In this document: in pieces, positions 8,923 to 64,000 of the stretch | Numbering within the stretch: position 1 is the stretch's first letter | How the letters are laid out: every line of letters starts with the position of its first letter | Virus record (IMG/VR): IMGVR_UViG_3300023184_000026 | Coordinates: 233,259 to 297,258 of that record | Source: a virus | Length of the DNA stretch: 64,000 nucleotides | Reading direction: 5' to 3' (one strand) | The notes under the pieces: generated by a model | Databases searched by the model: none | Seen by the model: only the letters and a program-made list of their open reading frames with translations | Told to the model about the DNA's origin: nothing | Position numbers and translations under genes: made by a program

Positions 8923-8938
8923 AGGAAAGTAACACTAT

Positions 8939-9568: not shown

Positions 9569-9578
9569 TTAAAATCAT

Positions 9579-10688: not shown

Positions 10689-10803
10689 CTAATAAAAGTT
10701 AAATTTTACATTGTTTAAGTAGTGTGTTTTGGGATGGGTTATAAAGAAATGTTGTCAATTGTAAAAACTCGCTCTATCGGCAAGTGAATACTCAAACATT
10801 GAT

Positions 10804-10813
10804 TATATTTATC
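10804..10813 (+). promoter_or_regulatory. TATATTTATC element, putative late promoter
   Basis: A near-perfect copy of the recurring 10-mer lies in the 130-bp gap before the 1120-aa gene. It ends only 5 nt before the ATG at 10819, so a T4-like start point would give an essentially leaderless message. The rest of the gap shows no other clear signal. Confidence 0.4.
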
Positions 10814-10818
10814 TATAT

Positions 10819-13800
10819 ATGATAAAGCAGTTCTCCGCAGGAGATATCACAGTAAGACCATTTAAGACTTTCAAACACTGGAGCGTTCAGAGTGTACATC
10901 TTGGTCATAAGGATGCATATGGATTTAATACTTATTATGATAATCTGTGTGAAGTTAATGAGGGAATAAAAAATACTTCCATATTTTATCCATCTGGGAG
11001 TTCATATTATACAGCGTCAGTTGAATTGATTAATCCATCTGGAAAATATGCCAGAAATATATACAGCCTCACAGACTCCATGTTTTATCGCAACAAGAAA
11101 AATTTTATGGAGTTGTTTGGTGTTGAAAGTATTGTAACGGACACGGCAACTGGAAAAAAGGAAGTAAGAAATATACACGATAGAGTTGTTACTTTGGCAC
11201 TAAATCAAACAAATTTTGGTGAAAAAATAAGACCGGAAACCGTTGAAATAGTGGACAATTCCAATCCACATGCCACATATATCATCAAAGATGATGGATA
11301 TACCAATCTTTATATCACGGGATCACATTTTTCTGAATACACATATTTGAGTGCAATGAGGAACATATATCCTCGACCGTATTGGAACACTTCAAGTGGG
11401 GAATTTCATTTGAATTTATTAGACGGAGAATCCAAGCATATAGATGTTGATACCGCAAAAGAATATCTTAAACTTGGCATGAATGTTTCGTATACCGGTA
11501 CATCCGATTATTTATACGATTCAAGTTCGTTGGTTGATACATTTCAATCGGATAATGAACATTTTGGAGAAGCAGTTAGCTCGTGGTATAAATATGTTGT
11601 GGCCGGTTCATCTATAGACAAATATAATTTGAATACGGGAAGTCAAGGCTATGCGGCCATATTCAAATATGATGATAATTTGGGAATTCACAGACCAATA
11701 AAGAAATTTACATCGCCGTTGAGAGACGTTGGATTCTTGCAAGACTTTGATATAGACAAGACATTTCCATACACTGTGGAGAATTTGCAAAATAGTGGTT
11801 CGTATTTTACTGACACATTTGGACAGTCTGTGTCTGTCCGTGATAACTTTTTGGCAGTTGGGTCATCGTCCGGTTCAATATGTTTTCCAACCGGTTCATA
11901 TCCAGGATATGTGTTTGTGTATGATAAATACAAAGGCGGAACCGATAATTGGGGGTTGATAAATATTATACAAGGAAATTCAAATGGAGATAATTTTGGT
12001 AAATCGGTTTCATTGGACAGAGATACCCTCGCCATAGGCGCACCGGGAGTCAGCGGTTCGGGTGCCGTGTATATCTTCAGACGAAAACAATACATGAGCG
12101 GTGGATGCGATGCAATTGAAACAAGTTCGTTTTGGCAAACATTATCTCCGGAAACGGACTTGTGCGACGAAATTATATCAGAATCCGGTTCTTTGATTAT
12201 ATACAGCGAAAGACCAATTCCTTGGACATACTCGTCGATGGCATATACAAGTTCAAGCATCGAACTTTTAAGCGGATCAATGTCGGCATCTTATGATCCA
12301 AATTCTACGGATACAAGAAGAGTATCAAGTTCATATTATCGAGTCGAAAATGGCGCTTGGTCTGGAAGTTATAGTTGGGAATATGAAGCCATCCTCACTT
12401 CCAGTGTTTTATCACTGGGAGACAACTTTGGATGGTGCGTTGCACTTGATTCTGGCAGCTTGTTTGTTGGAACAAACAAGACCGGAAATGGATATGCAAC
12501 ATTGTTTACATGCTCTTATTACTCATCTTCCGTCGGCGATTGTCCAACGGCTTCTTGGGGAGAAGCAAAAACATTCAGAAGAGATGGTACATATGGTGAC
12601 TTGGATATGTCTTCTCAATTCTATTCAATTGACGTGACGGGTGTATCAATATCGGACGATGGATTTGGTACGTCGGTTGCGATTGGTGGAAAAAACCTTG
12701 TAATTGGATGTCTTCGCGACAAGGCATTTATTCCATATGCGTCATATACAGGATCACCGACCAGTCTGGGTTCTGCGTATTTTTATAGAAATGACTATCG
12801 CTGCGGTTCTCTGGGATATTGGCAAGTGTTGAAAACATTTGGCGATAGAAAATATCAGTATAATAATAATTTTGGGAAATCCGTGTCTCTGGGAGGATTA
12901 TATAGCGCGATCACTTCTTGGTCCGACAAAGTTGGAAGAAATGTTGATTACTTCAATGGTGAATATATCATAGACGATTTATTATACCAAGCAAGTTCAT
13001 CGGATGATCCAAATGGAGTGCTGGGTAGAGTTGCCATATACAAATACAGTGATGTAAATGAAACATGGCAATTGACAGAAACCATACGACGCAACAAAGA
13101 AGCAAATAAGCCATCAAATATTTATGGATATTCAGTTTGCTTATGCTCAGATTTCATGGTTGTGGGTGCGCCGGTTGTTCATTTTGCAACTGCGAGTGCC
13201 ACGGCTTCGGTGTACGATCCAAACAACCTTGTTGATTTTCCGGCAAATTGCTCCGGTTCTGTGTATGTTTACAACGTCACAAATCTTGAGGACAATCCGC
13301 TTATAGGAAATGTATTTTACAAAAATGGATATTTTGCACTTACTCACACGGGATCAAATTATCGCGATATATTTACAAAAACCGGATCGGGTGGGTTTGA
13401 CCTAACGTATCAAGGATCACATACAATCTATGAACACGAATATCTGACATCTATTCGACCGGGCGAATTTAATTATAGTACAAATCCAACATCATTGGTA
13501 AAAACTCCATTAATGTTTGACGTAAACCAAGATGGTGTGTTTGATTTTCTTGACGTTGATTTGATAATGAGATTTTTTCAAAAAAGAAAATTCTTTGAAG
13601 AATTTATTTTCGACGATAATGGTGTAGTACTTGAACAAAGTTCAAACGCTGATAATAGTTGGTGGGGAGATGATATTCTACAACTTGAATCCGAAGACGT
13701 ACTGCTTCAGGAACAAACAGGCAGTGCAGCTTATATTGCAAGTTCTTCATTCAATGCTTTCACAAAAACTGCATATGACTATATTCAGAGCAATCTTATT

Positions 13801-14181
13801 GACACGGAATTGCTTGATATAGATGGTGACGGTAAAATCAACATGAATGATGCGAACATACTTGCATTATATTATTTAGAACGACTTGTTCCACAAAATC
13901 TGATACCTTTATTATCACCGGCCTCAACAAGAAAATATGTAAGGGATATAAATGATTATCTCAATCCATATTGCCATACTGATATTCACAAGGTCAATCC
14001 ACATTTCTTGGAATATGAATATAGTTCATCATATGATCCCACCGGTTCATATCTGGCACCATTTATAACAACTGTTGGATTATATGATGGAAATGAGCTT
14101 GTGGCGGTTGGAAAATTGGGCAGACCTGTTAAAAATTTAATAGATTGGCCCGTTAATATCATTGTTCGTTTTGATACATGA
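10819..14181 (+). CDS. FG-GAP-like beta-propeller virion protein with inserted dockerin-like Ca-binding pair
   Basis: This 1120-aa protein contains, from about residue 250 to 840, at least six repeats of the form (F/Y)GxSVSxxxxxLxVGxP...GxVYxY, for example FGKSVSLDRDTLAIGAPGVS and YGYSVCLCSDFMVVGAPVV. This is typical of FG-GAP/integrin-alpha-type propeller blades. Two 12-residue loops at 901-912 (DVNQDGVFDFLD) and 1000-1011 (DIDGDGKINMND) match the calcium loop of type I dockerins and EF-hands, each followed by a helix. The C terminus (TVGLYDGNELVAVGKLGRP) is shared with the preceding protein. In that paralogue the conserved NPT and VGLY blocks are about 35 residues apart; here the dockerin-like segment separates them. 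It is probably an exposed tail or baseplate adhesin; the ligand is unknown. Confidence 0.75.
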   Translation: MIKQFSAGDITVRPFKTFKHWSVQSVHLGHKDAYGFNTYYDNLCEVNEGIKNTSIFYPSGSSYYTASVELINPSGKYARNIYSLTDSMFYRNKKNFMELFGVESIVTDTATGKKEVRNIHDRVVTLALNQTNFGEKIRPETVEIVDNSNPHATYIIKDDGYTNLYITGSHFSEYTYLSAMRNIYPRPYWNTSSGEFHLNLLDGESKHIDVDTAKEYLKLGMNVSYTGTSDYLYDSSSLVDTFQSDNEHFGEAVSSWYKYVVAGSSIDKYNLNTGSQGYAAIFKYDDNLGIHRPIKKFTSPLRDVGFLQDFDIDKTFPYTVENLQNSGSYFTDTFGQSVSVRDNFLAVGSSSGSICFPTGSYPGYVFVYDKYKGGTDNWGLINIIQGNSNGDNFGKSVSLDRDTLAIGAPGVSGSGAVYIFRRKQYMSGGCDAIETSSFWQTLSPETDLCDEIISESGSLIIYSERPIPWTYSSMAYTSSSIELLSGSMSASYDPNSTDTRRVSSSYYRVENGAWSGSYSWEYEAILTSSVLSLGDNFGWCVALDSGSLFVGTNKTGNGYATLFTCSYYSSSVGDCPTASWGEAKTFRRDGTYGDLDMSSQFYSIDVTGVSISDDGFGTSVAIGGKNLVIGCLRDKAFIPYASYTGSPTSLGSAYFYRNDYRCGSLGYWQVLKTFGDRKYQYNNNFGKSVSLGGLYSAITSWSDKVGRNVDYFNGEYIIDDLLYQASSSDDPNGVLGRVAIYKYSDVNETWQLTETIRRNKEANKPSNIYGYSVCLCSDFMVVGAPVVHFATASATASVYDPNNLVDFPANCSGSVYVYNVTNLEDNPLIGNVFYKNGYFALTHTGSNYRDIFTKTGSGGFDLTYQGSHTIYEHEYLTSIRPGEFNYSTNPTSLVKTPLMFDVNQDGVFDFLDVDLIMRFFQKRKFFEEFIFDDNGVVLEQSSNADNSWWGDDILQLESEDVLLQEQTGSAAYIASSSFNAFTKTAYDYIQSNLIDTELLDIDGDGKINMNDANILALYYLERLVPQNLIPLLSPASTRKYVRDINDYLNPYCHTDIHKVNPHFLEYEYSSSYDPTGSYLAPFITTVGLYDGNELVAVGKLGRPVKNLIDWPVNIIVRFDT

Positions 14182-22154: not shown

Positions 22155-22254
22155 TATGGCACCAAACCGACCAACCCACTCTATCCAACACGGAATCCGC
22201 TAAATTATTATCCTTACTAATATAACGTATCCTTTATTTTTGAAGCTATATTTG

Positions 22255-22264
22255 TGTATTTATA
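22255..22264 (+). promoter_or_regulatory. TGTATTTATA element, putative late promoter
   Basis: This one-mismatch copy lies 13 nt before ATG 22278. It overlaps the in-frame GTG at 22254, which is one reason to reject that earlier start. Confidence 0.45.
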
Positions 22265-22277
22265 TATACTTATAGGC

Positions 22278-25200
22278 ATGGACATTTCTATAAAAAACCT
22301 AAAAAAGTATATTTTTGAGCCAAAAACAGAGTCACTGCGTCTAAAAAGAGCCAATGAAATACTAAGTCAGAACATGGTCATCACCGAAAAGGTAGATGGA
22401 ACAAAACTAACATTGGTACGTACACAGCAAGTTGATAAAGCAGATTATACCAAGAATTGGGTTGTGGCATATAAAGGAACTGTATTGTATGCCAAAGAGT
22501 TTGCTCATTTAAATGATAAAGAAAAGGGTGATATATCTCAATCTTCTGTTGGCATTGGTCAATATTCCATGATATTTGATCATTTGTCCAAGATAAACAA
22601 TAAGATTAACAGTATTCCAAAGAGCACTGAGTTTAGCGTTGAGTTTGCTCAAAACAAAGACACATTAACTCGTACATATGTCAACAAGGGTGGCTTGTTC
22701 TTGAGAAGTTATGGTGAAGTGCAGTATCGTGTGGTTGGTGGAGATTTGCATACCATTCCGAAACAAGAAATAACAGACTACAAATCTGTGAAAAAGATGG
22801 CAGACTTGTTGGAAATATCATCATTTCCCATATTCTTTCAAGGAAAACTCAGCAAGGAAAATCTGCTGAAGAATCCTTTATTTGGATCAAAACTAACAAA
22901 TGTTGATTGGACCAATCCGACTGATGTTGTAACAAAATTTTCGGAGGCTATTCTGGCTGTTCCATCTACATTGGGTGGCACAACAGAAGGTGTGGTAATG
23001 AAGCTTGATAATGGAGAGTTCTTCAAGTTGGTGCAAGCCGATCAATATGATGCTGGAGTTCGTGGTGCAAAGAAGGACGCATATAAACTTGAACCAGAAG
23101 CCGCTTCAGCATACTTTCAACAAATCAGAGCATTGATACAAAATATTTTTGCTGCAATTGGTACTGAAGGAAAATCCGAAGAAGACGTTATTTCAGATTC
23201 AAATTTTTATGTTGCCAAGAATCAACCAAAGTTAAAAAAGTTCTTTGATGCTCTAAAACAGATTGCTGGTGACAAAAAGAATATTGTTCAAATCAAAGAT
23301 GATATTCATGATACAATTCGTTTGATGACATCCAAACAAGGTCTGTTGGGATCAACCAACAAAACGCTTGGTCTTATTCCAATTGCTGGCAAGCCATTGC
23401 ACATTGGTCATTGGAAGCTTATTGAAAAAGCAGCCAATGAAAATGATCGAGTCATTGTTTATACATCATCTTCCGACAGAATAAAGAAGGGTGAGTTTCC
23501 TATAAAGGGCGATGACTTTGTAAAACTATGGAGTGATGTGTTTATTCCATCTTTGCCAAAAAATGTAAAAGTAAAGTTTGTTGATTCTCCTGTTCGAGCT
23601 ATTATGCATGAACTTGGATGGTTGGAACAAAGATTGACTCAAGACGCCGCAGATATGCCAACCATAAATTTGTATTCTGACAAAGATGATGTTGAAATAA
23701 ACTTCAAAGACGAAGATTTAAAAAAGTATCCAGAGTTGTTGGCTGCTAATAAAATTAAAAAAATTGGTGTTGAAAGAACTACCACAGTGAATGTAAGTGG
23801 CACAAAAATGCGTGAATTTTTGATGAACAATGATAAAGAATTATTCTTGAAAAATCTTCCACCGGTCGGCAACAAAGACAAAGAAGAAATTTGGAATACT
23901 CTCATAGCAAACAAGCCAGAGCCGGTATCAGAAGTTAATCCATATATAAACTTTGCTGAGGAAGTTATAAATGAAATGGAAAAAGAAATGTTTAATGAAG
24001 GTGGTTGGAGATCTACTGCCACACAATCAACTATTATAACTCCAAAAAAAGTATCAAATATTTTGAGTGCAATGGATAAATTTGTATCAGAATTCAATTC
24101 ATATTCAAATCTTCCTCCAATAAAATCCAATGGACCGGTAGGTTCAGCAATGTATTATAAACAAGATTTGGAAAAAGATGATGTAGAATATGGTGATATA
24201 GATATTCAAATTATATTACCAGAAGAAACTAATGATAGAACATCACAACTAGCATCTAATAAAAAATATTCGGAAAAGATTATTCAATTTATTCAAGAAA
24301 AAAAACCAAGTTATATATATCCAAACTTTCAAGACGAAGACTTTGGTACGGGATATTTAATATTCAACGTTGGTGGTGAAAAAATTCAAGTTGATTTAGT
24401 TTTGTCATATAAAGTATCAGCAGAATGGACAAAAATTAGAACAACTCCGGAAAAAGGACTAAAAGGATTTGTTACTGGAAATCTATTGAGTGCATTATCC
24501 GATGCTCTTAATGTTGTGTTGGGATCAAACACCAATCCGTATGTAAATACGATAGATAATAAAGTTGCGTCATCTCTGATTAAAACAAACTCAAAGCATG
24601 TGTTCTTTAATCCAAATCAAGTATTTTTGGATATATTGAAGTTCTATGGCAATCTTGCTGGCGTTTCAAAAATAAATTCATCATTATTACAAGGTCATTA
24701 TGGATTGGATGCAAATGATCCATCATTAAAGAAAAAATGCGAAACCGTGGTTGCTTTGAGTAAAGCACTTGATAATAATAGAGCATTTGATAATGGAGTT
24801 GTTGTATCAAAAAATGGAACAACATTTAAATCCAGAGAAGAATTTGTAAAATATGTGCTGGATACATTCATAAAAAATATGAAATCGGCCAGCACTGCAA
24901 AAAAATTAGAAAAAGCAGAAACACCAGAAGCTATGAAAAATATTGAAAAGATAAAACGTGACGCAAATCTTGGTATAGAACTGGCCAAGCAACTTATTCG
25001 TGAAGAAATTGCATTATTGAATGAATCCGGTCAATCTGTTGCTGCTGTAGATGACAAAACGTCAAAGACCGTAAATGGTCAACCAGCCCAAGCCACCACC
25101 AAACTCAAGATTGTTGATCCACAAGGTAAAGACATTCGTTCTTCTGTATCTGCCGACATAAAAGAACTTATATATGCACTAAATAATAAGGTGGGTTTTT

Positions 25201-26198
25201 GGAAGAAAAATAATCCATATATTGAAAACGGATTTGTTTTCAATGGAAGTTCTCAATATCTAATGAGCGGCGATGAAAAATATAAAGATTTGTCCAAATA
25301 TAAATCTGGATTCGGTGATGTTGATGTGATTGTTCCAAAAGAAAAGTTGGACACAATGGAAGCATACCTAGATAGCATTGATGACAAGAAAGTTGAATGG
25401 AATGCAACATCAAAAAATAAAGTAAGCAAGAATTTTTATTATGTTGGTCGTACAAAAAATCAACGTGCCTTAGCCGGTCAAACAGTCACATTGTGGTATT
25501 ATGCTCCAGTAAAACAGGTTGTTCAAATTGACTTTGAAGGAGATGAAATGACATTGGACCCGCAAGGCTATGAAAAGCCATCTGAGTGGAACAAGTTTAT
25601 CAAAGATTCTCCATGGCAAGATTTGACAGCTGGCATCAAAGGATTGGCAGGAGCTATTTTATTACGCGGTTTGACACGAGCAGCAACCGCACTACCAAAT
25701 GCAGTGTATGTCACCAACTCAACTGCACTCAAGATACAATCTGGTCAGTTGAAGAGTTTGGTTGATGCCAAAGGCAAGAGTGTTGTATCAGTCAATGCTA
25801 CACATGCTCTACCAGCAGAATATACCCTCAATACAAGCGGTTCTGGTCATGCTGGTGTGCGCAAGGCATATCGTCTTGTAGCCAAGAATATGGACTATCA
25901 AGGTAAAAAAGTAGATGTTTATACCGACATTGCTGCCAGTGAAAGCAAACCAGAAGACCGTATCAACAGCGTAAATAAAGTATTTGAATTAATTTTTAAA
26001 CGCAAGCCAAGTGGTCAAGATATTGAAAATTTCAGAAGTTATGTTGGATTGCTAACACTCATGAAGACTCTACCAAAAGATGTTCAAGTAAAAGCACTGG
26101 AAAGAGCCAAAGAAGGTCTTGCTCAAGCGGGGTTGGAACCAGCAGAATATGCTCCAATTCAAAAAGCGGCTAAAACTATACTGGGAATATCCATATAA
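22278..26198 (+). CDS. Four-module nucleotidyltransferase fusion: ligase-like + HIGH-type + two Pol-beta-type domains
   Basis: ATG 22278 gives 1306 aa. Four modules can be read. (a) Residues 1 to about 300 look like a covalent nucleotidyltransferase/RNA ligase: TEKVDGTKL with candidate nucleophile K38, motif IV EGVVMKL at 237-243, motif V FFKLVQ at 248-253. (b) Residues about 360-560 look like a HIGH-type nucleotidyltransferase: GKPLHIGHWK (H375-H378) and VSGTKMREF at 506-514, the ISSTxxR-like block. (c) Near 619-645, GPVGSAMYY and YGDIDIQI (D640, D642) fit a Pol-beta-type nucleotidyltransferase. (d) Near 989-1016, NGSSQYL and FGDVDVIV (D1014, D1016) give a second Pol-beta-type domain. Between c and d, AKQLIREE (903-910) matches the predicted prohead-protease tag. 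Substrates are unknown; RNA repair, tRNA modification or a delivered effector are possible. Confidence 0.75.
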   Translation: MDISIKNLKKYIFEPKTESLRLKRANEILSQNMVITEKVDGTKLTLVRTQQVDKADYTKNWVVAYKGTVLYAKEFAHLNDKEKGDISQSSVGIGQYSMIFDHLSKINNKINSIPKSTEFSVEFAQNKDTLTRTYVNKGGLFLRSYGEVQYRVVGGDLHTIPKQEITDYKSVKKMADLLEISSFPIFFQGKLSKENLLKNPLFGSKLTNVDWTNPTDVVTKFSEAILAVPSTLGGTTEGVVMKLDNGEFFKLVQADQYDAGVRGAKKDAYKLEPEAASAYFQQIRALIQNIFAAIGTEGKSEEDVISDSNFYVAKNQPKLKKFFDALKQIAGDKKNIVQIKDDIHDTIRLMTSKQGLLGSTNKTLGLIPIAGKPLHIGHWKLIEKAANENDRVIVYTSSSDRIKKGEFPIKGDDFVKLWSDVFIPSLPKNVKVKFVDSPVRAIMHELGWLEQRLTQDAADMPTINLYSDKDDVEINFKDEDLKKYPELLAANKIKKIGVERTTTVNVSGTKMREFLMNNDKELFLKNLPPVGNKDKEEIWNTLIANKPEPVSEVNPYINFAEEVINEMEKEMFNEGGWRSTATQSTIITPKKVSNILSAMDKFVSEFNSYSNLPPIKSNGPVGSAMYYKQDLEKDDVEYGDIDIQIILPEETNDRTSQLASNKKYSEKIIQFIQEKKPSYIYPNFQDEDFGTGYLIFNVGGEKIQVDLVLSYKVSAEWTKIRTTPEKGLKGFVTGNLLSALSDALNVVLGSNTNPYVNTIDNKVASSLIKTNSKHVFFNPNQVFLDILKFYGNLAGVSKINSSLLQGHYGLDANDPSLKKKCETVVALSKALDNNRAFDNGVVVSKNGTTFKSREEFVKYVLDTFIKNMKSASTAKKLEKAETPEAMKNIEKIKRDANLGIELAKQLIREEIALLNESGQSVAAVDDKTSKTVNGQPAQATTKLKIVDPQGKDIRSSVSADIKELIYALNNKVGFWKKNNPYIENGFVFNGSSQYLMSGDEKYKDLSKYKSGFGDVDVIVPKEKLDTMEAYLDSIDDKKVEWNATSKNKVSKNFYYVGRTKNQRALAGQTVTLWYYAPVKQVVQIDFEGDEMTLDPQGYEKPSEWNKFIKDSPWQDLTAGIKGLAGAILLRGLTRAATALPNAVYVTNSTALKIQSGQLKSLVDAKGKSVVSVNATHALPAEYTLNTSGSGHAGVRKAYRLVAKNMDYQGKKVDVYTDIAASESKPEDRINSVNKVFELIFKRKPSGQDIENFRSYVGLLTLMKTLPKDVQVKALERAKEGLAQAGLEPAEYAPIQKAAKTILGISI

Positions 26199-26927: not shown

Positions 26928-28862
26928 ATGAAGATTCTTTATATAGCACCTCACCTTTCAACCGGTGGATGTCCCCAGTTCTTGCTCAAGAAAATACAAG
27001 TTTTACACAAAGATCATGAAATTTATTGTGTTGAATACTCAAATCATGGCGGCTTTACTGTTCAAAGAAACCAAATAAAGGAGATTCTTGGAAACAGATT
27101 CATAGAACTTGGTGAAGATAAAATGAATCTTCCGAATATCATAGACCGAATAAATCCGGAAATTGTTCATTTGGAAGAAATGCCAGAATATTTCATGGAT
27201 GGCAATTTGGCAGTAAAATTGTATGACAAAAACAGAAAATATAAAATAATTGAAACATCCCACGACAGCAGTTTCGACGCAAGAAATAAAACATTTTTCC
27301 CTGATAAGATACTGTTCGTAAGCAAGTATCAACTTGAATCTTTGAAATCATTGGATGTAGCAATGGATGTGTGTGAATATCCAATAGTAATTAAGCCAAG
27401 AAAGCCTCGGGCGGAAGCGTTGAAGGTACTTGGACTTGACCCAAATAAGAAACATATTATAAATGTTGGATTATTTACTCCAAGAAAAAATCAAGCTGAG
27501 ATAATTAGGTATGCTAAGATGTTGAAGGACTATCCAGTCCAGTTTCATTTCATCGGCAATCAGGCGGATAATTTTAAGTTTTATTGGGAACCATTGATGA
27601 AAGATTTTCCGAGCAATTGTGTGTGGTGGAACGAACGTAAAGACGTTGAAAATTTTTACCAAATTGCGGATCTTTTTCTATTCACTTCGCGAGGAACCAT
27701 ACATGATAAAGAAACAAGTCCTCTTGTGATTAGAGAAGCTATATCGTTCAATGTTACGTCGTTAATATATAATCTACCAGTGTATCTTGGAATGTATGAC
27801 AAATATGAAAATATAAACTATCTCAATTTTGAAAGTATGCAAGACAACTGCTCAAAAATACTAAACTCTCTGAAAATTAAACCAAACAATATTATGCCAG
27901 AATTTATAGAAAAACAAGAAGATATCAAGATAGGATACGACCGTTCAGAAAACAAGATTGAATATCTGTCCAAACACGATATTCCAAATGCAATCGTGTC
28001 GGTAAAGGACATAGACTCAAAAACGGTGTTGTATGCAGCACAACATGAAATTTTGAACGCCAATATAAATTATTGGATTATTCCCGTACACAAGAGTCAT
28101 AGAGATTTTGAAACAGATATCCTTTTTGGTGGAATGACTGTTGATGTATATAGTGGAGAAAATTTATTACACTCCAAAGATTTCAGAATACGGGTCGTCA
28201 ATGTAGAAAAGCCAGTACTGAAAACAAAGAATAATATCACTCCAACATATAATAACTATATGGAGTTTTTTGTTCACGGTGAATACAATGAATATTTGAA
28301 AGGAAAAGAGTTTAACACCGTTGTTGATGTTGGTGCCAACGCCGGTATCTGGGTTGAATATATCAAGTATGTAGCCAAATGCAAAAAGATATATGCAATA
28401 GAACCAAACACACAAGCATTAAAAACATTGAGAGATACATATACATCGGATGAATTGACCATAATAGACAAAGCATTGTGTGATAAAGATGGTGAATTGG
28501 AGTTTTTCATAGATCCCAGCAATTCTACCATAGGATCAATCAAGAAAAATCATCAAGACAGTTTGGTTGTTTCTCACAAAATACAAGGAATTTCATTTCG
28601 CACTTTTATCAAGGAAAATAATATTGATCATATAGATTTGATGAAAATGGACATAGAAGGTGGCGAATATCCATTTTTTGATAGCATGCAGAAAGAAGAT
28701 CTGGATAAAATTGGAACAATATTGGTTGAATATCACATGCAAGGTGGTCAAACCATAGACAAAGAAGTTGCAATATTATTGGCATTGTTGCGCGGGTCTG
28801 GATTCAAATACACCATAAAACATCAACACTCTGGCGGTGGGTTTATAGTTGCAACCAAATAA
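26928..28862 (+). CDS. Bifunctional GT4-type glycosyltransferase + FkbM-type methyltransferase
   Basis: This 644-aa protein has two parts. Residues 1 to about 310 resemble GT-B/GT4 enzymes: MKILYIAPHLSTGGCPQFLL at the N-terminal nucleotide fold, HIINVGLFTPRKNQAEII at the hinge, and FTSRGTIHDKETSPLVIREA as a version of the GT4 E-x7-E region. Residues about 430-640 are a class I SAM methyltransferase of the FkbM family: NTVVDVGANAGIWVEYI (SAM loop), YAIEPNTQALKTL and DLMKMDIEGGEYPFF. A small beta-rich linker domain joins them (GGMTVDVYSGENLL). Such fusions build and O-methylate surface or protein-linked glycans. It is the first gene of the glycan island; the next ATG is 6 nt after the stop. Confidence 0.8.
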   Translation: MKILYIAPHLSTGGCPQFLLKKIQVLHKDHEIYCVEYSNHGGFTVQRNQIKEILGNRFIELGEDKMNLPNIIDRINPEIVHLEEMPEYFMDGNLAVKLYDKNRKYKIIETSHDSSFDARNKTFFPDKILFVSKYQLESLKSLDVAMDVCEYPIVIKPRKPRAEALKVLGLDPNKKHIINVGLFTPRKNQAEIIRYAKMLKDYPVQFHFIGNQADNFKFYWEPLMKDFPSNCVWWNERKDVENFYQIADLFLFTSRGTIHDKETSPLVIREAISFNVTSLIYNLPVYLGMYDKYENINYLNFESMQDNCSKILNSLKIKPNNIMPEFIEKQEDIKIGYDRSENKIEYLSKHDIPNAIVSVKDIDSKTVLYAAQHEILNANINYWIIPVHKSHRDFETDILFGGMTVDVYSGENLLHSKDFRIRVVNVEKPVLKTKNNITPTYNNYMEFFVHGEYNEYLKGKEFNTVVDVGANAGIWVEYIKYVAKCKKIYAIEPNTQALKTLRDTYTSDELTIIDKALCDKDGELEFFIDPSNSTIGSIKKNHQDSLVVSHKIQGISFRTFIKENNIDHIDLMKMDIEGGEYPFFDSMQKEDLDKIGTILVEYHMQGGQTIDKEVAILLALLRGSGFKYTIKHQHSGGGFIVATK

Positions 28863-28868: not shown

Positions 28869-29498
28869 ATGGCAAACGGAGTATACAGAATAACAGAAGA
28901 GTTTGAGGAAAAATTGGCAAAATATACTGGTGCTCCATATGTAGTCACCGTGGATAATCAAAGCAATGCTTTGTTTTTATCATTATATTATCAAAATATA
29001 AAAGGACAGTCTATTAGCATTCCTTCCCGCACGTACCCGAGTGTACCATGTGAGATCATACATGCTGGCGGAAAGGTAAACTTTGAACCGGTTGAAGGCA
29101 AGACCATCAAGGGTGCATATCAGCTCAAGCCCACGCGCACGTGGGACAGCGCATTGCGCTTTACTGCCAACATGTATATTCCAAATTCGTTCATGTGCAT
29201 ATCTTTTACCGGTCCATATAAGCACTTCAAATTAAGCAAGGGTGGTGCTATTCTTACAGACGATCTTCATGCATATCATTGGTTTAAGCGTGCCAGATAC
29301 AGCGGCAGAAGAGAATGTTCATATCATGATGACAATCTGGATATGCTAGGTTGGAATTTTTACATGATGCCGGAACTTGCTGCCAGAGGATTGTTGCTTA
29401 TGGGTCAGTTTTATAACATGGACGGCACACCAAAACATAATGAAGATTTGGAGCTACCATATCCAGACTTATCCAAATTTGATGTGTATAAGCAATGA
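28869..29498 (+). CDS. Short DegT/DnrJ/EryC1-type sugar aminotransferase
   Basis: The sequence follows the DegT/DnrJ/EryC1/StrS PLP fold: VTVDNQSNALFLSLYY (cofactor phosphate region), ISIPSRTYPSVPCEIIHAGG, a WDSA around D93 in place of the usual EDAAQ, and SFTGPYKHFKLSKGGAILTD, where K118 aligns best with the PLP-linking lysine. At 209 aa it is far shorter than the usual 360-400 aa. The C-terminal small domain is missing, and the connection between the sugar-binding loops is shortened. The gene is intact and overlaps the next start by 4 nt, so I read it as a compact or specialised form rather than a broken gene. It probably pairs with the following acyltransferase to make an acylated amino sugar. 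Confidence 0.7.
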   Translation: MANGVYRITEEFEEKLAKYTGAPYVVTVDNQSNALFLSLYYQNIKGQSISIPSRTYPSVPCEIIHAGGKVNFEPVEGKTIKGAYQLKPTRTWDSALRFTANMYIPNSFMCISFTGPYKHFKLSKGGAILTDDLHAYHWFKRARYSGRRECSYHDDNLDMLGWNFYMMPELAARGLLLMGQFYNMDGTPKHNEDLELPYPDLSKFDVYKQ

Positions 29499-30052
29499 TT
29501 AGAAAATTCCAAAACTATACAGAGGATGAAATGAATGAGTCTGGTATGACTTTTGGTAAAAATGTATATATTGCCAATGATGTTATCATTCATAATGCCC
29601 AGAATATAATCATAGGAGACAATGTTCGCATAGATACTCAATGTGTATTGATTGCTGGAAAAAATCACAAAATAAAAATTGGAAATAGCGTACATATTTC
29701 GGCAGGATGCTATTTTTATGGCAATTCCGGAAATATAACTCTGGGAGATTGTTGTTGCACTTCCGGTCGCTGCATTCTTTATACCGCAAATGATGATTAT
29801 ACAGACGGCTATATGGCCAATTCTGTGATAGATGATAAGTACAAAAAGGTGGTTGCTGGAAACATAGAGTTAAAAAAACATGCGTTGGTTGGATGTTATA
29901 CAGTAATACTTCCAAATGTTGTTTTGGAGCATGCCACGTCTGTAGGCGCACACTCGCTGATTACAAAATCTACTTCTCATTTTGATGTTGTGGCGGGTTG
30001 CCCAGCTAAATTTATAAAGAAAAGAAAAAATGTTTATTTGACAGATGTATAA
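29495..30052 (+). CDS. Left-handed beta-helix (hexapeptide) acyltransferase
   Basis: This 185-aa protein shows hexapeptide turns throughout: NVYIANDVIIHNAQNIIIGD, NVRIDTQCVLIAG, KIKIGNSVHISAGCYF. After an insert loop (TANDDYTDGYM) come the typical C-terminal HALVGCYTVILPNVVLEHAT and DVVAGCPAKFIKK, the CoA-binding end of WbbJ/maa-type O- or N-acetyltransferases. It overlaps the aminotransferase by 4 nt and the next gene by 8 nt. The pairing suggests N-acetylation of an amino sugar, or O-acetylation of a glycan; the substrate cannot be told. Confidence 0.85.
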   Translation: MIRKFQNYTEDEMNESGMTFGKNVYIANDVIIHNAQNIIIGDNVRIDTQCVLIAGKNHKIKIGNSVHISAGCYFYGNSGNITLGDCCCTSGRCILYTANDDYTDGYMANSVIDDKYKKVVAGNIELKKHALVGCYTVILPNVVLEHATSVGAHSLITKSTSHFDVVAGCPAKFIKKRKNVYLTDV

Positions 30053-30845
30053 AGGAAAAAAAGTCATACTTACTACGACAGCGTGCAAAAGAATAAATCT
30101 TCTTAAAGCCGCAATACAAAGTTTTAGTATATTCTGCCAAGATAAGAATATAATAGATGAAATACACTATTATGACGACTCTTCGCAGCCACACGAAAGA
30201 TCAACGGCGATTGAGTATTATCATAAGCATATACCAAGTGCCAATTTGATATTCAGATTTTTTGAGAAGGAGACATTTCCAGACAACTATAGACATGCGA
30301 GAGTATTGAACTTCTGGAGAAATGGTATAGAAAGTTCAAATGCCGATTATGTATTTCATCTGGAAGATGATCATCAGTTTTATAATATGTTTAATATAGG
30401 TGAAGCTATAGATATTATGGAACAATATCCAGAGTATGCTTATATGGGCTATTGTCAAAGTTGGAAAAATTTTCCAGTTGATATGATGCCAAAGAAAATA
30501 ATAGGGAACTTTTGGGAGACGATTTATCTTGACAACAGGCCAATGAATGATTTATTATTCTTGGATGATGTTATGGCTATGCATACTGGACTAGATTGGT
30601 GGATGTATTATATTAATTGGCCGTATTTTTCTTTGCGGCCTGGAGTACATCATGTCAAGAAGCTGCTTTCCGTGGGAGATTTTTCCACAACATATGATCG
30701 TGAAAAAACAAGCGTTGAGTTGGAGTTTGCCATACGATGGAAAAATATGGGGTACAAAAGCATGATGTGCAAGTATTTTACTTCTCTACACACTGGTCAA
30801 GATCCAGAACTTAGCGCATACAAAATCAACAACTCAGCAAGATGA
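30045..30845 (+). CDS. GT-A-type glycosyltransferase (266 aa)
   Basis: The start KKVILTTTACKRINLLKAAI and the later IDEIHYYDDSSQP look like the first strands of a GT-A fold. The DxD-type metal/nucleotide motif is in YVFHLEDDHQF near residue 105. The central AYMGYCQSWKNFPVD and the final part DREKTSVELEFAIRWKNMGY suit a small single-domain glycosyltransferase. It overlaps the acyltransferase by 8 nt and the next gene by 4 nt, showing compact organisation of the island. The family number is uncertain. Confidence 0.65.
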   Translation: MYKGKKVILTTTACKRINLLKAAIQSFSIFCQDKNIIDEIHYYDDSSQPHERSTAIEYYHKHIPSANLIFRFFEKETFPDNYRHARVLNFWRNGIESSNADYVFHLEDDHQFYNMFNIGEAIDIMEQYPEYAYMGYCQSWKNFPVDMMPKKIIGNFWETIYLDNRPMNDLLFLDDVMAMHTGLDWWMYYINWPYFSLRPGVHHVKKLLSVGDFSTTYDREKTSVELEFAIRWKNMGYKSMMCKYFTSLHTGQDPELSAYKINNSAR

Positions 30846-32149
30846 ACGAACAAACATTTCAAAATATATGGACAGAATGCCTTGGGTTCAATATTGAACA
30901 AAAGCCAGAAGAATATAAACAGCTGCTTTCACTGCTTGATGATAGAAAGAACAAGCGTTATGCTCTTGAAATAGGCTCAAATTATGGCGGAACCACTGCT
31001 GGATTTTGTCAGTTATTTGATACGGTAATAACAATAGACATCAAACACCATATCAATTTTGATAGACTTAAACGGAAGCATCCCACATACCAATATATTA
31101 TTTCGGATTCCAAGAGCAATGATACATTGGAATATATCAAAAGTCTTGGAATTAAATTTGATTTCATCTTTATTGATGGCGACCATTCATACAATGGGGC
31201 AAAAAATGATTATGACAAATATAAGCAATTTTTGGCATATGATGGGCATATAGGATTTCATGACATCATCTCAAGCGACCTTAATCGCCAATACGACATA
31301 AATGTGGACATTCTTTGGAAAGAAATAAAAGACACATATAACGATGTTCACGAATTTGTGGCTACATCAAAACACTCTGATTATAGCAGGCAGAATGAAT
31401 TTCATGAAATAGTTGGAAAAAACGATTATTCACAATGGGGAGGTATTGGAGTATTAAAAAATACACCAATTGGAGTTTTTTCTCATAACTATCTTACCAA
31501 TCATTGGTATGACATTGTTAATAGCCAGCTTTTAAAACTGAGCAATTCTGGTCTATACAAGCGAGCGGACAAAATTGTTTATGGAGTCAATGTTGATAAG
31601 GATGACGTATATCATAGTTTTATTGGGCTGTTGGACAAATATGATATAGACAGAAAGATAGAAGTATATCGTTATACAAAAAACATGTATGAGTTTCCCA
31701 CACTTATTCATCTACAGAATTATTGTGCCAACAATCCAAATGCATCCGTAGTGTATTATCACGCAAAAGGAACATCTCGCTCGTATGATCGCAACATAGA
31801 GTCTTGGAGAGAATGTCTTGAATATTTTAACATAGAACAATGGAAAAAATGTCACACTGAAATTATTACAGGAAAACACGATGTGTGTGGAGCATTGCAT
31901 GTTGATAAATTTGAGTTTTTGGATAAAGTACTTACAAACTATTATTCTGGCAATTTCTGGTGGGCAAGTGCAAAGTATATAAATACACTTGACAATATAA
32001 CCGCAAAAATGATAGAAGTAAATATGGAAAGAGCCGAAGCTGAAAGATGGATAGGTAGAAAACCACATCGCTGGGCCAGCCTATATAATGAAAATATATC
32101 GGATTGGTATATGCATTACTTTGATCCAAAATTATATAAACGACCATGA
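30842..32149 (+). CDS. Methyltransferase_24-like domain fused to an unknown HAKG-type domain
   Basis: Residues about 35-145 form a SAM-dependent methyltransferase: YALEIGSNYGGTTAGFCQLF (SAM loop), VITIDIKHH, and FDFIFIDGDHSYNGAKNDYD followed by DGHIGFHDI, as in cephalosporin-hydroxylase/Methyltransferase_24 proteins. Residues about 235-435 carry a second domain with VVYYHAKGTS, DVCGALHVD and YYSGNFWWASAKYI. I have the impression of this pattern in glycosyltransferase-like proteins, but I cannot name the family. It overlaps both neighbours by 4 nt. The methyl acceptor is presumably a sugar of the same glycan. Confidence 0.7.
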   Translation: MNEQTFQNIWTECLGFNIEQKPEEYKQLLSLLDDRKNKRYALEIGSNYGGTTAGFCQLFDTVITIDIKHHINFDRLKRKHPTYQYIISDSKSNDTLEYIKSLGIKFDFIFIDGDHSYNGAKNDYDKYKQFLAYDGHIGFHDIISSDLNRQYDINVDILWKEIKDTYNDVHEFVATSKHSDYSRQNEFHEIVGKNDYSQWGGIGVLKNTPIGVFSHNYLTNHWYDIVNSQLLKLSNSGLYKRADKIVYGVNVDKDDVYHSFIGLLDKYDIDRKIEVYRYTKNMYEFPTLIHLQNYCANNPNASVVYYHAKGTSRSYDRNIESWRECLEYFNIEQWKKCHTEIITGKHDVCGALHVDKFEFLDKVLTNYYSGNFWWASAKYINTLDNITAKMIEVNMERAEAERWIGRKPHRWASLYNENISDWYMHYFDPKLYKRP

Positions 32150-33909
32150 AACTATCCGTCATAATCACATCATATAAGTTTAAAGATTTCATTTCACAAT
32201 GTATTGATAGTATATTGTCACAAAAAACCGACTTTGGATTTGAAGTGTTGATCAGAGATGACGGCACAAATGATGGTACATTTGAATTGTTAAATGAGAA
32301 ATACAAAGCAAATACCAATATCAGAATATTGGACTCTTCCACGAATGTGGGTGCAGTCGAAAATCTTCTTATATTGGTCAATGAAGCCAAGGGTAAATAT
32401 ATCGCACATATAGATGGCGACGATTATCTCACAGACGATGGATATTATCAGCGTTCTATTAATTATTTGGATGAAAATCCATCATATGCCTTATACTGCT
32501 CCGGTTGTAGATATCTTGAAAATGGAGTTGTGTCGCCCGAAAACCATTGGATAGTGAGTGCCAAACCAGATATTGAGTTAAAAGATTTACTTGTTGAAAA
32601 CTATGTGTCATTTGCGCGAGTATTTAAAAAAACAGAATTTAGAAGAGAGATATTCAAAGACATTATATATCCCGACTGGGTTTTTAACTTTGAAATATTA
32701 AAATACGGTAAAGGTTATTGTGATACCAATCATTGTGCAGGAATGTATAGAATACATAAAAATGGAATGTTTTCTATGACGCCAGCCGAAGAAAAGTTGG
32801 AAAATAAAAATATTATTAAATCGGAGTTGAAAAAAAGATATGCAAGATTTCAACACAAGGTTATTACCATAGTTGATAGTTTTGTATACAACGACTCAAT
32901 TCGGTCCAAATTATTGAATACAATAAATTGGATGAAAGAAGATGGTCACGAAGTATTGCTTGTATCCAATACCATGGTAGACAAGGAGATTTTAAAATAT
33001 GTAAAGTTTTATTTGTATGATAGTCGCAATCAACTATTTCAAGAAAAGTATGACGATGTTGGTCTTGTAGATTTTTGGAAATCTCTCGCTGATGGATTTT
33101 ATATACACGACGTTGTTCCAGTATTACAAAAGCACGGACTGTCTGTGATGATAAATCTTTTTAATGCATTATTATACGCAAAGTCGCAAGGATATACACA
33201 TTTTCAAAGATTTGAAGTTGATGATCTATTTGGAGAAAAATCGAGAGAATATATAAAGCAGGTTCCATATGTGTGCGCAAATGAAAATAAACACGGGTTG
33301 TTCTATTACAACGAAGGTAATAATCCACCGGATATGTCGTTTCATTATTTTTATTGCAACATAGATGAATTTTTATCCAAAGTTCCGAGATTATCCAACG
33401 AGCAAGATTATGTGAATTATCTAAGACAATATCACGATGACAATAAGTTCCGTATAGTTGAGGTTTATGTATATGAAAGTTTAAAAAGAAATAATGACTC
33501 AAAGTTTTTAATAAAGTTTGATGAAAATGCCATGACATTGGACTTTCCAGACACACGTTGGAATACAGAAACATCTATCAGCAGTTTTGATCCCAAATAC
33601 GGAAAGTGTACTACTCGACTTTATTATATCAACGAACACAATAAAGAAACTAATACATTCAATCGCGGATCATCGTATGCCGTTTACACGCACTCATATC
33701 ACTCCGGATCTACGTTTAGAAAAATAGTTGTAGAAAAGATTGATGGTGGAAAATACGAATTTATTCACAATACAGAAGTAGCGAATGGCTGGGCGTGGAA
33801 TGAAGTTTTTTCGGATGTTAAATCCATTTCTGTATATGAAGATGATAAGTTTTTATATAGAGAGCATGTTGCGGATTGTATATCATATATCAATCTAATA
33901 AGAAAATGA
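32146..33909 (+). CDS. GT2-type glycosyltransferase with second GT-like C-terminal region
   Basis: Residues 1 to about 230 are a clear GT2 domain: MKLSVIITSYKFKDFISQCI, VLIRDDGTNDGTFELL, and the DxD in KYIAHIDGDDYLTDDG. Residues about 240-420 look like another transferase domain: KVITIVDSFVYNDSIRSKL, EVLLVSNTMVD and a possible DxD-like HFQRFEVDDLFGEKS. The last 100 residues are beta-rich (STFRKIVVEKIDGGKYEF). An open, frameshifted stretch follows the stop. It overlaps the previous gene by 4 nt. It may be a processive or two-step transferase; acceptor unknown. Confidence 0.75.
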   Translation: MKLSVIITSYKFKDFISQCIDSILSQKTDFGFEVLIRDDGTNDGTFELLNEKYKANTNIRILDSSTNVGAVENLLILVNEAKGKYIAHIDGDDYLTDDGYYQRSINYLDENPSYALYCSGCRYLENGVVSPENHWIVSAKPDIELKDLLVENYVSFARVFKKTEFRREIFKDIIYPDWVFNFEILKYGKGYCDTNHCAGMYRIHKNGMFSMTPAEEKLENKNIIKSELKKRYARFQHKVITIVDSFVYNDSIRSKLLNTINWMKEDGHEVLLVSNTMVDKEILKYVKFYLYDSRNQLFQEKYDDVGLVDFWKSLADGFYIHDVVPVLQKHGLSVMINLFNALLYAKSQGYTHFQRFEVDDLFGEKSREYIKQVPYVCANENKHGLFYYNEGNNPPDMSFHYFYCNIDEFLSKVPRLSNEQDYVNYLRQYHDDNKFRIVEVYVYESLKRNNDSKFLIKFDENAMTLDFPDTRWNTETSISSFDPKYGKCTTRLYYINEHNKETNTFNRGSSYAVYTHSYHSGSTFRKIVVEKIDGGKYEFIHNTEVANGWAWNEVFSDVKSISVYEDDKFLYREHVADCISYINLIRK

Positions 33910-34004: not shown

Positions 34005-36125
34005 ATGAAAGTAATTAATGTAAATCCTGGCATACTTCCTATTCCACCAAATGGTTGGGGCGCTGTTGAAAAGATAATTTGGGACTATCACCAAGAAATT
34101 TTAAAAGTTGGCATTCGCAGCGAAATCAAATATCTCGATGATATAAAATATGACGAAAGTATGGTTGTTCATGTGCACGTCGCCAATTTGGCAATTATAT
34201 GCCATGAGCGCGGCATTCCTTATATTTTTAGTATTCATGATCATCATGCATATTTGTATGGTAAAGATTCCGATGTATTTAGAAAAAATTTACAAGCAAT
34301 TGAAAACAGCGTATTTTCATTGTCGCCTTGCAAATATCTTATTCCATATTTTGGAAGCAAGAAGCTTCGTTACTTCAGTCACGCTGTTAACACGGATATA
34401 TTTAAGTTCAATGGTCATCAGAGACGACATGTGCCAAGACTGTTGTGTGTTGCAAATAACGGATATGCATATGATCAAAGCATAGACCGAAAAGGTTTCA
34501 AAATAGCTATTGAGTCGGCAATGAAACTAGCGTTGCCTATTACTATAGCCGGACCCAGCAACAACAAGAATTTTTTTAAAACAATGTCTCCGGAAATTAA
34601 CGGATATACAGGTCTCACAAAGTTATTCGACCTTGATGAAAAATGGCTTGTTGATCTTTATAACGAAAATGATATATTCCTCCATTTTTCGGAATTAGAA
34701 GCCGGACATCCAAACCTAACACTGCTTGAGGCAATGTCATGCGGTTTGCCGGTTGTTGGTACGTTCGAAGAGGTATTGTATAAAGGAATGTATGTGACTG
34801 ATAGAAATCTTGATAATGCAGTCGCCGGAATAAAAACTGTCGTGGGTAGTTTTGACCAATATCGACAGGATGCTTTAAATACTGCAAATTCCAATTCATA
34901 TGGAATCAGAGTAAATGAACTTGCAAAATTGTATAGTGAATATCGCGAACAGATATTTGCCAATGGAATAATAAATCATTATCAAACTTCTCAACAAACA
35001 CTAAAAGAACCAAAAAATAAAATAAATATATCGTTTTTGCGTGGACCAAAAGTAGAAATACTTGGACCAGTCAATAAAAAATATAAAGTCAAGTTTTATG
35101 ATATGGATACAAATAGTGTCATATACGAAACGACACTCAGAAATAATATGTGGTCCGTTTCAAATAAAAGATATTTTGTAAAATGGAAAATTGAAGTTTA
35201 TGAAGTTGTGAATGAAAATTGGGAAATGCTTATTGAAACCCGCGTTTTGGATTTAGCTAAAAAGTCGATAAAAGTGGTATTTGATACCAATAGCTTGGGA
35301 GATATTATTTCATATATTGGCACAACCGATGCCTTCCAGAAAAAACACAATTGCGAACTTACGTGTGTTGTTTTTAATACGGAACTAGTTGAATTATTCA
35401 GCAAAAATTACAAAAATATAAAGTTCTCAAGAACAAACGACGGCGATGACAATTATTACTCCACGTATTATATTGGTTATTATGATCAAGAAAATTGGGA
35501 CGGTAATATGAAAAAAAATCCAAAGCATTTATCACTTGCGTTGGTGGCGGCAAATATACTGGGATTGCCAGAGGTGGAAATTCCACCATCTTTGAATATA
35601 ACCCCTTTGAAGCATAATAAAAAATATGTATGTATTGCAACACAAAGCACTACACAGGCAAAATATTGGAACAATCCAAATGGCTGGAACCTTGTTGTGG
35701 ATTATATCAAATCCAAAGGATATGAAGTGTGGTGCATAGATTTACACAACAGTTTTGGGTCTGGTGGTAAAATGAATTATATGCCAGCGGGTGCCATCGA
35801 TAAGACTGGAAAATTCCCGTTGGAAGAAAGAATGTCTCAGGTTGCAGGTGCGGAGTTTTTTATTGGACTTGGATCTGGATTATCTTGGCTGGCATGGGGA
35901 GTTCATCAAAAAGTTATACTTATCAGTGGATTTAGCGAGGAGTTTGCCGAATTCAAAAATCCTTATAGAGTTATCAATAAAAACGTGTGTCATGGATGTT
36001 GGAATGATGCAAGTTGTATATTTGACAAATCCGATTGGAACTGGTGCCCCAGAAATAAAGATTTTGAATGTACTAAAGAGATATATCCAGAGGATGTTAT
36101 AAAAATGATAGACAAAATAATTTGA
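34005..36125 (+). CDS. GT4 glycosyltransferase fused to a BAHT-type autotransporter O-heptosyltransferase
   Basis: Residues 1 to about 315 are a GT4 enzyme: INVNPGILPIPPNGWGAVEK, YIFSIHDHHAYLYG, and ELEAGHPNLTLLEAMSCGLP (E-x7-E region). From about 340 the protein follows the bacterial autotransporter heptosyltransferase family (TibC/Aah type). First comes the strand-loop-strand domain (NISFLRGPKVEILGPVNKKY; YETTLRNNMWSVSNKRYFV). Then the GT9-like catalytic part with KYVCIATQSTTQAKYWNNP and FFIGLGSGLSWLAWG. The C-terminal metal finger is C662-x2-C665 ... C681 ... C689 (NVCHGCWND, WNWCPRNK, FECT). In TibC such cysteines bind iron and the enzyme adds heptose to serines of autotransporters. A target in this phage is unknown. 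Confidence 0.85.
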   Translation: MKVINVNPGILPIPPNGWGAVEKIIWDYHQEILKVGIRSEIKYLDDIKYDESMVVHVHVANLAIICHERGIPYIFSIHDHHAYLYGKDSDVFRKNLQAIENSVFSLSPCKYLIPYFGSKKLRYFSHAVNTDIFKFNGHQRRHVPRLLCVANNGYAYDQSIDRKGFKIAIESAMKLALPITIAGPSNNKNFFKTMSPEINGYTGLTKLFDLDEKWLVDLYNENDIFLHFSELEAGHPNLTLLEAMSCGLPVVGTFEEVLYKGMYVTDRNLDNAVAGIKTVVGSFDQYRQDALNTANSNSYGIRVNELAKLYSEYREQIFANGIINHYQTSQQTLKEPKNKINISFLRGPKVEILGPVNKKYKVKFYDMDTNSVIYETTLRNNMWSVSNKRYFVKWKIEVYEVVNENWEMLIETRVLDLAKKSIKVVFDTNSLGDIISYIGTTDAFQKKHNCELTCVVFNTELVELFSKNYKNIKFSRTNDGDDNYYSTYYIGYYDQENWDGNMKKNPKHLSLALVAANILGLPEVEIPPSLNITPLKHNKKYVCIATQSTTQAKYWNNPNGWNLVVDYIKSKGYEVWCIDLHNSFGSGGKMNYMPAGAIDKTGKFPLEERMSQVAGAEFFIGLGSGLSWLAWGVHQKVILISGFSEEFAEFKNPYRVINKNVCHGCWNDASCIFDKSDWNWCPRNKDFECTKEIYPEDVIKMIDKII

Positions 36126-36144: not shown

Positions 36145-36531
36145 ATGGAATTGCAGCAGTTTATACCGTCAGATCAAATTATTTTAGCTATTGCCGAAAA
36201 AGTTAAAAAAAAATTTCCGTCCTCAAATGGCAAGTGTGAATTTATGTCGCAAGAACTGGTTTCTGATTTGAATAAAAAAGGAATACGATCCAATCATGTA
36301 ATGGGAATATTCACACTTGATGAACCCGGTGCATGGAAATACAGATCAGAAGAGGATGAAGAATTTGATGAGTATCAAGTTAATCATGATTGGGTAAATG
36401 TGGAAGGAAAAATATTAGACATATCCGCCGATCAATTTAAAAAGTACGTAAATCAAAATATACCAAATGTAGTATATATAAGATACTCAGATCCATTATA
36501 TAAATATTACACGGAGATGGGTTATGTCTGA
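36145..36531 (+). CDS. Transglutaminase/papain-like fold protein upstream of terminase (128 aa)
   Basis: This small protein shows a possible Cys-His-Asp triad in the order of transglutaminase-like cysteine proteases: C31 in NGKCEFMSQELVSDL at the start of a helix, H81 in QVNHDWVNVEGKILDISADQ, and D92 shortly after. The HDW-V-V-G--LDxSADQF block is the part that most resembles the family. It overlaps the terminase gene by 8 nt. AGG lies very close to its ATG. A terminase small subunit would be expected near here, but I see no HTH or coiled-coil TerS pattern. Whether it is catalytic is unproven. Confidence 0.55.
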   Translation: MELQQFIPSDQIILAIAEKVKKKFPSSNGKCEFMSQELVSDLNKKGIRSNHVMGIFTLDEPGAWKYRSEEDEEFDEYQVNHDWVNVEGKILDISADQFKKYVNQNIPNVVYIRYSDPLYKYYTEMGYV

Positions 36532-63499: not shown

Positions 63500-64000
63500 A
63501 TGTCCAAACTAGTAGGCAGACAACCAATAGAAGTAAAGTTAATTGACAAGGTACATGGATATGTACCAATATATGACAGCGCGTCTGGATATTGGACAAC
63601 AACCGACCTTTATGCTGCTATAACAAGCAGTGTGTCTTCCACCGCAAGTTTTGCAATCAGTGCTTCATATGCACTTACAGCAAGTTATGCATTGAGTTTT
63701 AGCGGAACAAGTGGAACATCTGGTACAAGTGGAACATCCGGTGCCAATGGATCGTCTGGCACAAGTGGAACCAGTGGCACAAGTGGTTCAAGCGGCACAG
63801 CGGGAACAAGTGGCTCTTCTGGTACATCAGGCACGTCTGGTATAGACGGCACAAGCGGTTCAAGTGGAACCAGTGGCACAAGTGGTTCAAGCGGCACAGC
63901 GGGAACAAGTGGCTCTTCTGGTACATCAGGCACGTCTGGTATAGACGGCACAAGCGGTTCAAGTGGAACCAGTGGCACAAGTGGTTCAAGCGGCACAGCG
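63500..64000 (+). CDS. Collagen-like tail fibre, N-terminal part (3' truncated by the window)
   Basis: ATG 63500 opens a frame that runs to the window edge (167 codons seen). The first 50 residues contain KLVGRQPIEVKLIDKVHGYV and YDSASGYWTTTDLYAAI. Then comes SFAISASYALTASYALSFSG, nearly the same as in the fibre at 54638, followed by GTSG/GSSG collagen-like triplets. The triplet part is built of a 99-bp unit repeated almost exactly. It is probably another fibre or a paralogue of the gene at 54638. Confidence 0.8.
   Translation, partial: MSKLVGRQPIEVKLIDKVHGYVPIYDSASGYWTTTDLYAAITSSVSSTASFAISASYALTASYALSFSGTSGTSGTSGTSGANGSSGTSGTSGTSGSSGTAGTSGSSGTSGTSGIDGTSGSSGTSGTSGSSGTAGTSGSSGTSGTSGIDGTSGSSGTSGTSGSSGTA
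63776..64000 (+). repeat. 99-bp tandem repeat within the collagen-like fibre gene
   Basis: The string GGCACAAGTGGTTCAAGCGG recurs at 63776, 63875 and 63974, a period of exactly 99 bp (33 residues, 11 triplets). The sequence between copies is identical as far as I can read, including a single GIDG triplet per unit. The array continues past the right edge. Confidence 0.9.

Follow-up and report, generated by a model that had tools for sequence, protein, structure and literature searches.

The heptosyltransferases of the BAHT family act, in bacteria, on the strand-loop-strand (SLS) repeats of adhesins (PMC4358343). Much about how such an enzyme works can be read from TibC, which glycosylates serine and not threonine: D110 is its catalytic base, T226, K230, R286 and W305 bind the donor, and the cysteines C339, C342, C358 and C370 form an iron finger (PMC4358343). 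TibC also assembles into a dodecamer, for which a hydrophobic thumb tip is required (PMC4358343).

Relatives in phages are already present in databases by name, since the 924-aa protein A0A6J5SVC1 of an uncultured Caudovirales phage has been automatically named 'Glycosyltransferase Aah/TibC'; it has the BAHT fold in common with the enzyme described here, at 30% identity. A search of open-licence papers returned no study of what phage proteins of that name do, what they are fused to or what they act on, and no paper that joins a phage BAHT to fibres. Another relative, WWT39291.1 of Microcystis phage Mel-JY01, is annotated as an FkbM methyltransferase and carries GT4 and TibC_1st/BAHT in one chain of 1226 aa. 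Two further systems deserve comparison. The moraphages, at up to 307 kb, are jumbo phages of aquatic origin like the phage studied here; their description covers 25 phages with predicted Bacteroidota hosts and four core glycosyltransferase groups, its text contains neither 'heptosyl' nor 'collagen', and its available part names no BAHT (PMC12619734). In mycobacteriophages, glycosylation of the capsid and tail tube (Freeman 2023, cited in PMC12619734) places glycans on virion proteins, as we propose here; unlike our system it concerns different acceptors, and the available part of the citing text mentions no BAHT module.

Here we describe a phage gene in which a GT4 glycosyltransferase is fused to a full BAHT module. 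It lies in a stretch of 64,000 nucleotides (hereafter the window), which comprises bases 233259-297258 of a virus record of 297,258 bp. With the TibC/Aah BAHTs (TIGR04414; PDB 4rap, 4rb4) the enzyme shares the barrel, the catalytic domain, the Asp, the Thr/Lys/Arg/Trp set and the four-Cys finger. It differs from them in being GT4-fused and phage-encoded, in falling into a clade of its own, in having no SLS partner, in its hydrophilic thumb tip and in its place inside what looks like a variable sugar cassette. The Mel-JY01 protein resembles the window enzyme in lying ahead of a terminase with GTS arrays nearby; unlike it, that protein is a longer chain with other domains in between, and its phage has Microcystis elabens as the recorded host.

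Results

Domains and active site

The reading frame opens with ATG, and in a profile search its product matched TIGR04414 (hepto_Aah_TibC), the NCBI equivalog model of the autotransporter strand-loop-strand O-heptosyltransferases, scoring 352.9 bits where the cut-off is 200 (E 1.8e-105). Residues 335-705 cover positions 7-374 of the 374 in that model, and the same residues matched TibC itself in phmmer (E 1e-74). Two other families scored just above their thresholds, namely the GT4 profile PF00534 on the N-terminal part (27.2 bits, cut-off 26.4) and the TibC N-terminal domain PF21129, TibC_1st (27.9 bits, cut-off 27). Spike-protein matches to the GT4 part (phmmer, E 0.02-0.2) were dismissed as chance. 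The domains are listed with the other features in Table 1.

Table 1. Features of the window discussed in the text, with positions in the window and the evidence for each.
Feature	Position	Strand	Evidence or remarks
GT4-FkbM methyltransferase fusion	26928..28862	+	PF00534, PF05050; recurrent partner of GT4-BAHT in related phages
Cassette: short DegT/DnrJ-type aminotransferase piece, 209 aa	28869..29498	+	PF01041
Cassette: hexapeptide-repeat acyltransferase	29495..30052	+	PF00132; NCBIfam WcaF-like
Cassette: 266-aa protein, probable GT-A-type transferase	30045..30845	+	EDDH motif and position; without family match
Cassette: methyltransferase with unassigned second half	30842..32149	+	Methyltransf_24; CmcI-like just under cut-off
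Cassette: GT2 glycosyltransferase with unassigned C-terminal half	32146..33909	+	PF00535
GT4-BAHT fusion enzyme, 706 aa	34005..36125	+	Profiles, phmmer, alignment, model, Foldseek
N-terminal GT4 domain, residues 1-326	34005..34982	+	PF00534; Foldseek MshA/BshA; conservation
TibC-type N-terminal beta-barrel, residues 338-420	35016..35264	+	PF21129; strands in model
BAHT catalytic domain, residues 421-706	35265..36122	+	Base D433; donor contacts T549, K553, R609, W628
Four-cysteine metal finger C662/C665/C681/C689	35988..36071	+	Equivalents of the TibC iron finger
Collagen-like tail fibre, 1005 aa	54638..57655	+	115 G-X-Y triplets, mostly GTS/GSS; 112 Ser in array; proposed acceptor
Start of another collagen-like GTS fibre	63500..64000	+	Runs off the record end

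By alignment, the base and the four donor contacts are the equivalents, in the order of Table 1, of TibC D110, T226, K230, R286 and W305, and the finger cysteines are those of C339, C342, C358 and C370. The catalytic aspartate, all four donor contacts and all four cysteines are invariant in 22 aligned fusions. An AlphaFold2 model was built from 22 homologues (mean pLDDT 79.5, with low confidence in the finger region). The best 21 PDB matches of this model in Foldseek were all TibC chains, with TM 0.80-0.83 on TibC (for 4rap, E 1.6e-32 and TM 0.83), and MshA, BshA and other GT4 enzymes came next. Membership of the BAHT class is therefore near certain. The first-pass annotation of this DNA had proposed both the fusion and the finger, and had set beforehand a structural comparison with TibC as the refuting test; profiles, alignment and structure agree with it on each point, the BAHT fold and the finger both being present. 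Its 'strand-loop-strand domain', however, is the name of the target repeat, and the extra domain of the enzyme is an eight-stranded beta-barrel.

Some positions depart from TibC. The model predicts a thumb hairpin (strands 583-586 and 589-592), and the residues aligned with the thumb tip F265/V266 of TibC are G588/K589. With such a hydrophilic tip, ring assembly and the grip on the acceptor may differ from those of TibC. We rejected the mismatch as proof against ring formation, because the aligned tip is variable among bacterial BAHTs too. P300, the D,D-heptose selectivity residue of TibC, corresponds to G623, at which phages mostly have G, S or P.

Among the fusion homologues, conservation is highest in the GT4 half, where 40% of the columns are invariant; the figure is 22% for the catalytic domain of the BAHT part and 4% for the barrel. 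This suggests that the GT4 half has been kept as a working enzyme, with putative GT4 activity. The E-x7-E motif of GT4 enzymes appears in 22 fusions as an invariant SELEAGHPNLTLLEAM, which carries two extra residues between the pair of glutamates, an unusual spacing that speaks somewhat against such activity.

Architectures and phylogeny

Viral BAHTs are widespread, being found in at least 585 stretches, and they range from stand-alone proteins of 383-400 aa through GT4-BAHT proteins of about 710 aa to chains of up to 1736 aa in which GT4, GT2, FkbM or a dehydrogenase is joined to the BAHT. The first-pass annotation had suggested looking for the same fusion in other phages, and it is indeed common: a whole-protein search returned 61 viral loci, about 50-55 of which hold the whole GT4-BAHT fusion. 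The beta-barrel is duplicated in three of the fusion-bearing loci, and four others (L057-L060) encode a differently built GT4-BAHT protein of 1036 aa. The best 80 bacterial relatives, from Burkholderiaceae, Lentisphaerota, Selenomonadales and others, are mostly 400-500 aa long. As the longest of these 80 has 601 aa, a complete GT4 domain would not fit, and by this criterion of length the fusion is absent from them.

We built a tree of 108 BAHT modules, for which the bacterial set was the best 80 matches to a phage query. In this tree, 63 phage BAHT rows formed one clade with an SH-aLRT of 100, and those of the short BAHTs without barrel that the tree contains formed one clade. The window phage has a second BAHT of this kind outside the window (G000:179752-180624 in the full record, L075:3752-4624 in its locus); at about 290 aa it is without beta-barrel and GT4, and the full finger is present. 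In L184, L200, L202 and L203 such a short form stands directly behind a full-length BAHT.

Gene neighbourhood

In related phages with the fusion, synteny repeatedly places GT4-FkbM shortly upstream of GT4-BAHT, and the sugar genes between the two change, among them the DegT piece, the hexapeptide acyltransferase, the 266-aa transferase-like protein, the methyltransferase, GT2 and others. Judged by gene order, the locus resembles a glycan cassette whose two ends are fixed while its content varies. GT4, FkbM and BAHT are joined in one chain in L226, which supports a shared pathway. We also considered whether the TibC_1st barrel is common to other cassette enzymes such as GT4-FkbM; this is unsupported, with no match beyond BAHT proteins. 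The DegT/DnrJ homologue matches only about the first quarter of its profile, yet it is 85-89% identical in other phages, where the short form is thus retained.

The cassette is placed between tail/baseplate genes and the genes for TerL, portal and major head protein. The closest relatives of the adjoining terminase are those of Microcystis phage Mel-JY01 (52%) and Flavobacterium phages immuto (51%), from which a Bacteroidota or a cyanobacterial host is a guess only. Between the BAHT and the terminase, positions 36145-36531 encode a 128-aa protein that occurs in nearly all relatives keeping the terminase nearby and has a weak match to a papain-like fold (PF15645, E 0.0026, below cut-off). Further upstream, positions 22254-26198 encode a 1314-aa RNA-ligase-like, cytidylyltransferase (NMNAT)-like and nucleotidyltransferase-like protein, a homologue of which (67-97% identity) lies directly downstream of the BAHT in several related phages.

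Donor sugar

Neither gmhA nor rfaE domain II was found in this phage, and the donor must therefore come from the host. The nucleotidyltransferase-like protein at 22254-26198 was set aside as a donor-synthesis enzyme, being RNA-ligase/NMNAT-like. The arginine that contacts adenine in TibC has been lost in 21 of the 89 aligned phage BAHT rows, which suggests that these lineages use donors with another nucleotide. For the window enzyme, the sugar transferred would most likely be heptose, judging from the residues of its donor site.

Survey of candidate targets

SLS repeats (TIGR04415) were not detected in the 297-kb record, while the E. coli control was positive. Overall, 21 of 26 bacterial BAHT genomes contain SLS repeats versus 2 of 42 phage BAHT records. 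Since the SLS target is absent, we file the protein as a BAHT enzyme and not as a member of a BAHT-autotransporter system.

The GTSG-rich fibres to which the earlier reading pointed do exist, at the two places given in Table 1. The product of the complete gene has matches among the tail-fibre and collagen-like minor-tail families of phages, and elsewhere in the record a 1515-aa protein (G000:4718-9262) contains 351 G-X-Y triplets. Of the Y positions in these arrays, 68-84% are serine. The nearest array gene is 18.5 kb from the GT4-BAHT enzyme. A like open GTS frame begins the record (G000:3-1661); as the record thus ends and begins inside GTS arrays, the linear record is probably broken in the repeat.

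To quantify the co-occurrence of arrays and BAHTs, we used a DNA pattern for six (G[ST][ST]) triplets. The pattern was present in 27 of 42 phage BAHT records, in some of them with no more than 1-2 matches, and the reversed pattern in 0. It was present in 0 of 50 random viral records, which were drawn by an arbitrary 15-mer and are shorter than the BAHT records. In the other direction, a BAHT was found in 23 of 50 records chosen solely for their arrays (21 above cut-off) versus 0 of 50 random ones (Fisher p=8.7e-9). When both sets were restricted to records of 20-70 kb, the association gave p=0.004. In records with both, the BAHT is also nearer to the array than uniform placement predicts, at a median of 9.5 kb (combined p ~0.02; 0.003 for records of at least 60 kb). 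On the other hand, 15 of the 42 phage BAHT records show no array, perhaps as fragments or with another target, and 27 of the 50 array records show no BAHT. The pattern is rare in bacterial BAHT genomes (5 of 26, about 115 Mb), where it mostly marks low-complexity repeats. Paraburkholderia unamae (G017, locus L118) has a BAHT, no SLS repeat found and a long Gly-Ser-Ser array, with 43 matches on contig C47.

Only two viral rows of the tree, L215 and L227, stand among the bacteria, next to Lentisphaerota, and they are exactly the two records with SLS repeats and without arrays. Both have an AIDA-repeat protein directly upstream of the BAHT, in which no autotransporter domain was found, and nearby L227 has a collagen tail fibre and L215 an integrase. 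These surroundings suggest that the target in L215 and L227 may be a phage tail protein too.

Discussion

We favour, with moderate confidence, the view that this is a phage protein O-glycosyltransferase which initiates O-glycans on serines of the collagen-like fibres that the phage itself encodes, and lengthens them, using a donor from the host. The BAHT half would take an ADP-activated sugar made by the host, heptose being the likeliest given that R609 is kept, and attach it to Ser side chains, and the fused GT4 half would add the next sugar. The upstream cassette, with its GT4-FkbM, GT2, methyltransferase, acyltransferase and aminotransferase-like piece, would then extend, methylate and acylate the glycan. 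As acceptor, the phage's own (Gly-Thr-Ser/Gly-Ser-Ser)n tail fibres are the most likely, and virions would accordingly bear variable sugar-coated fibres. We infer the activity, the order of steps, the array serines as acceptor and the effect on the virion from the features described above. The first-pass annotation had left the target between the phage's own fibres and a host surface protein. Our survey favours the fibres, because SLS repeats are missing from the phage and BAHTs and arrays co-occur strongly in both directions, and the adhesin target does not carry over. This co-occurrence is an association and not proof of substrate, and large aquatic phages belonging to a single ecological group could simply happen to carry both arrays and BAHT. 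Against the fibre reading, a collagen triple helix is unlike the beta-helix gripped by TibC.

At a broader level, we see even chances that the long-diverged phage BAHT clade has swapped its acceptor, from beta-helical adhesin repeats to collagen-like GTS/GSS fibres, and builds variable glycans on these with a cassette that varies from phage to phage in the manner of a virion serotype locus.

The enzyme might instead glycosylate other virion proteins, such as the Ser-rich baseplate/tail proteins of positions 2645-14181, the capsid or the tail tube, with the arrays as mere companions. The position of the cassette among tail and head genes would fit, as would the Ser-rich tail proteins t3, t6 and t7 (18-22% S+T) and the virion glycosylation known in mycobacteriophages (Freeman 2023, cited in PMC12619734). 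We nevertheless consider this unlikely, since it leaves unexplained both the strong association of BAHTs with arrays and the exchange of arrays for SLS repeats in L215 and L227. A host surface protein, an adhesin or autotransporter modified so as to alter adhesion or block superinfection, is quite unlikely as the target. Such proteins are the usual substrates of bacterial BAHTs (PMC4358343), and the host could have SLS proteins. However, the phage BAHTs form a separate clade, the gene is located among late structural genes, and phage records carry arrays, with SLS repeats only where the BAHT was taken from bacteria.

We regard it as very unlikely that the fibres are glycosylated on Ser by a BAHT-type enzyme using a donor other than ADP-heptose. 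The loss of the arginine in part of the phage rows, the absence of gmhA and rfaE domain II and the change from P300 to G623 point that way, but the window enzyme retains all four donor contacts, R609 included. Least probable of all is an acceptor other than a protein (LPS, capsule or phage DNA), of the kind that other phage enzymes of GT9/GT4 type may use: the catalytic fold is GT9/GT-B, and phage glycosyltransferases are commonly interpreted as modifying DNA or LPS (PMC12619734), but the barrel and cysteine finger that define protein-modifying BAHTs are both conserved and the equivalog score is far above its cut-off.

If glycosylation of the phage's own collagen-like fibres is true, a widespread phage group would sugar-coat its receptor-contacting fibres via a dedicated, swappable glycan locus, and the host range, receptor binding, virion stability and recognition of such phages would be read differently. 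It would also explain the extreme Ser content of phage collagen-like fibres, and it would illustrate the way in which a family of protein glycosyltransferases comes to act on a different acceptor.
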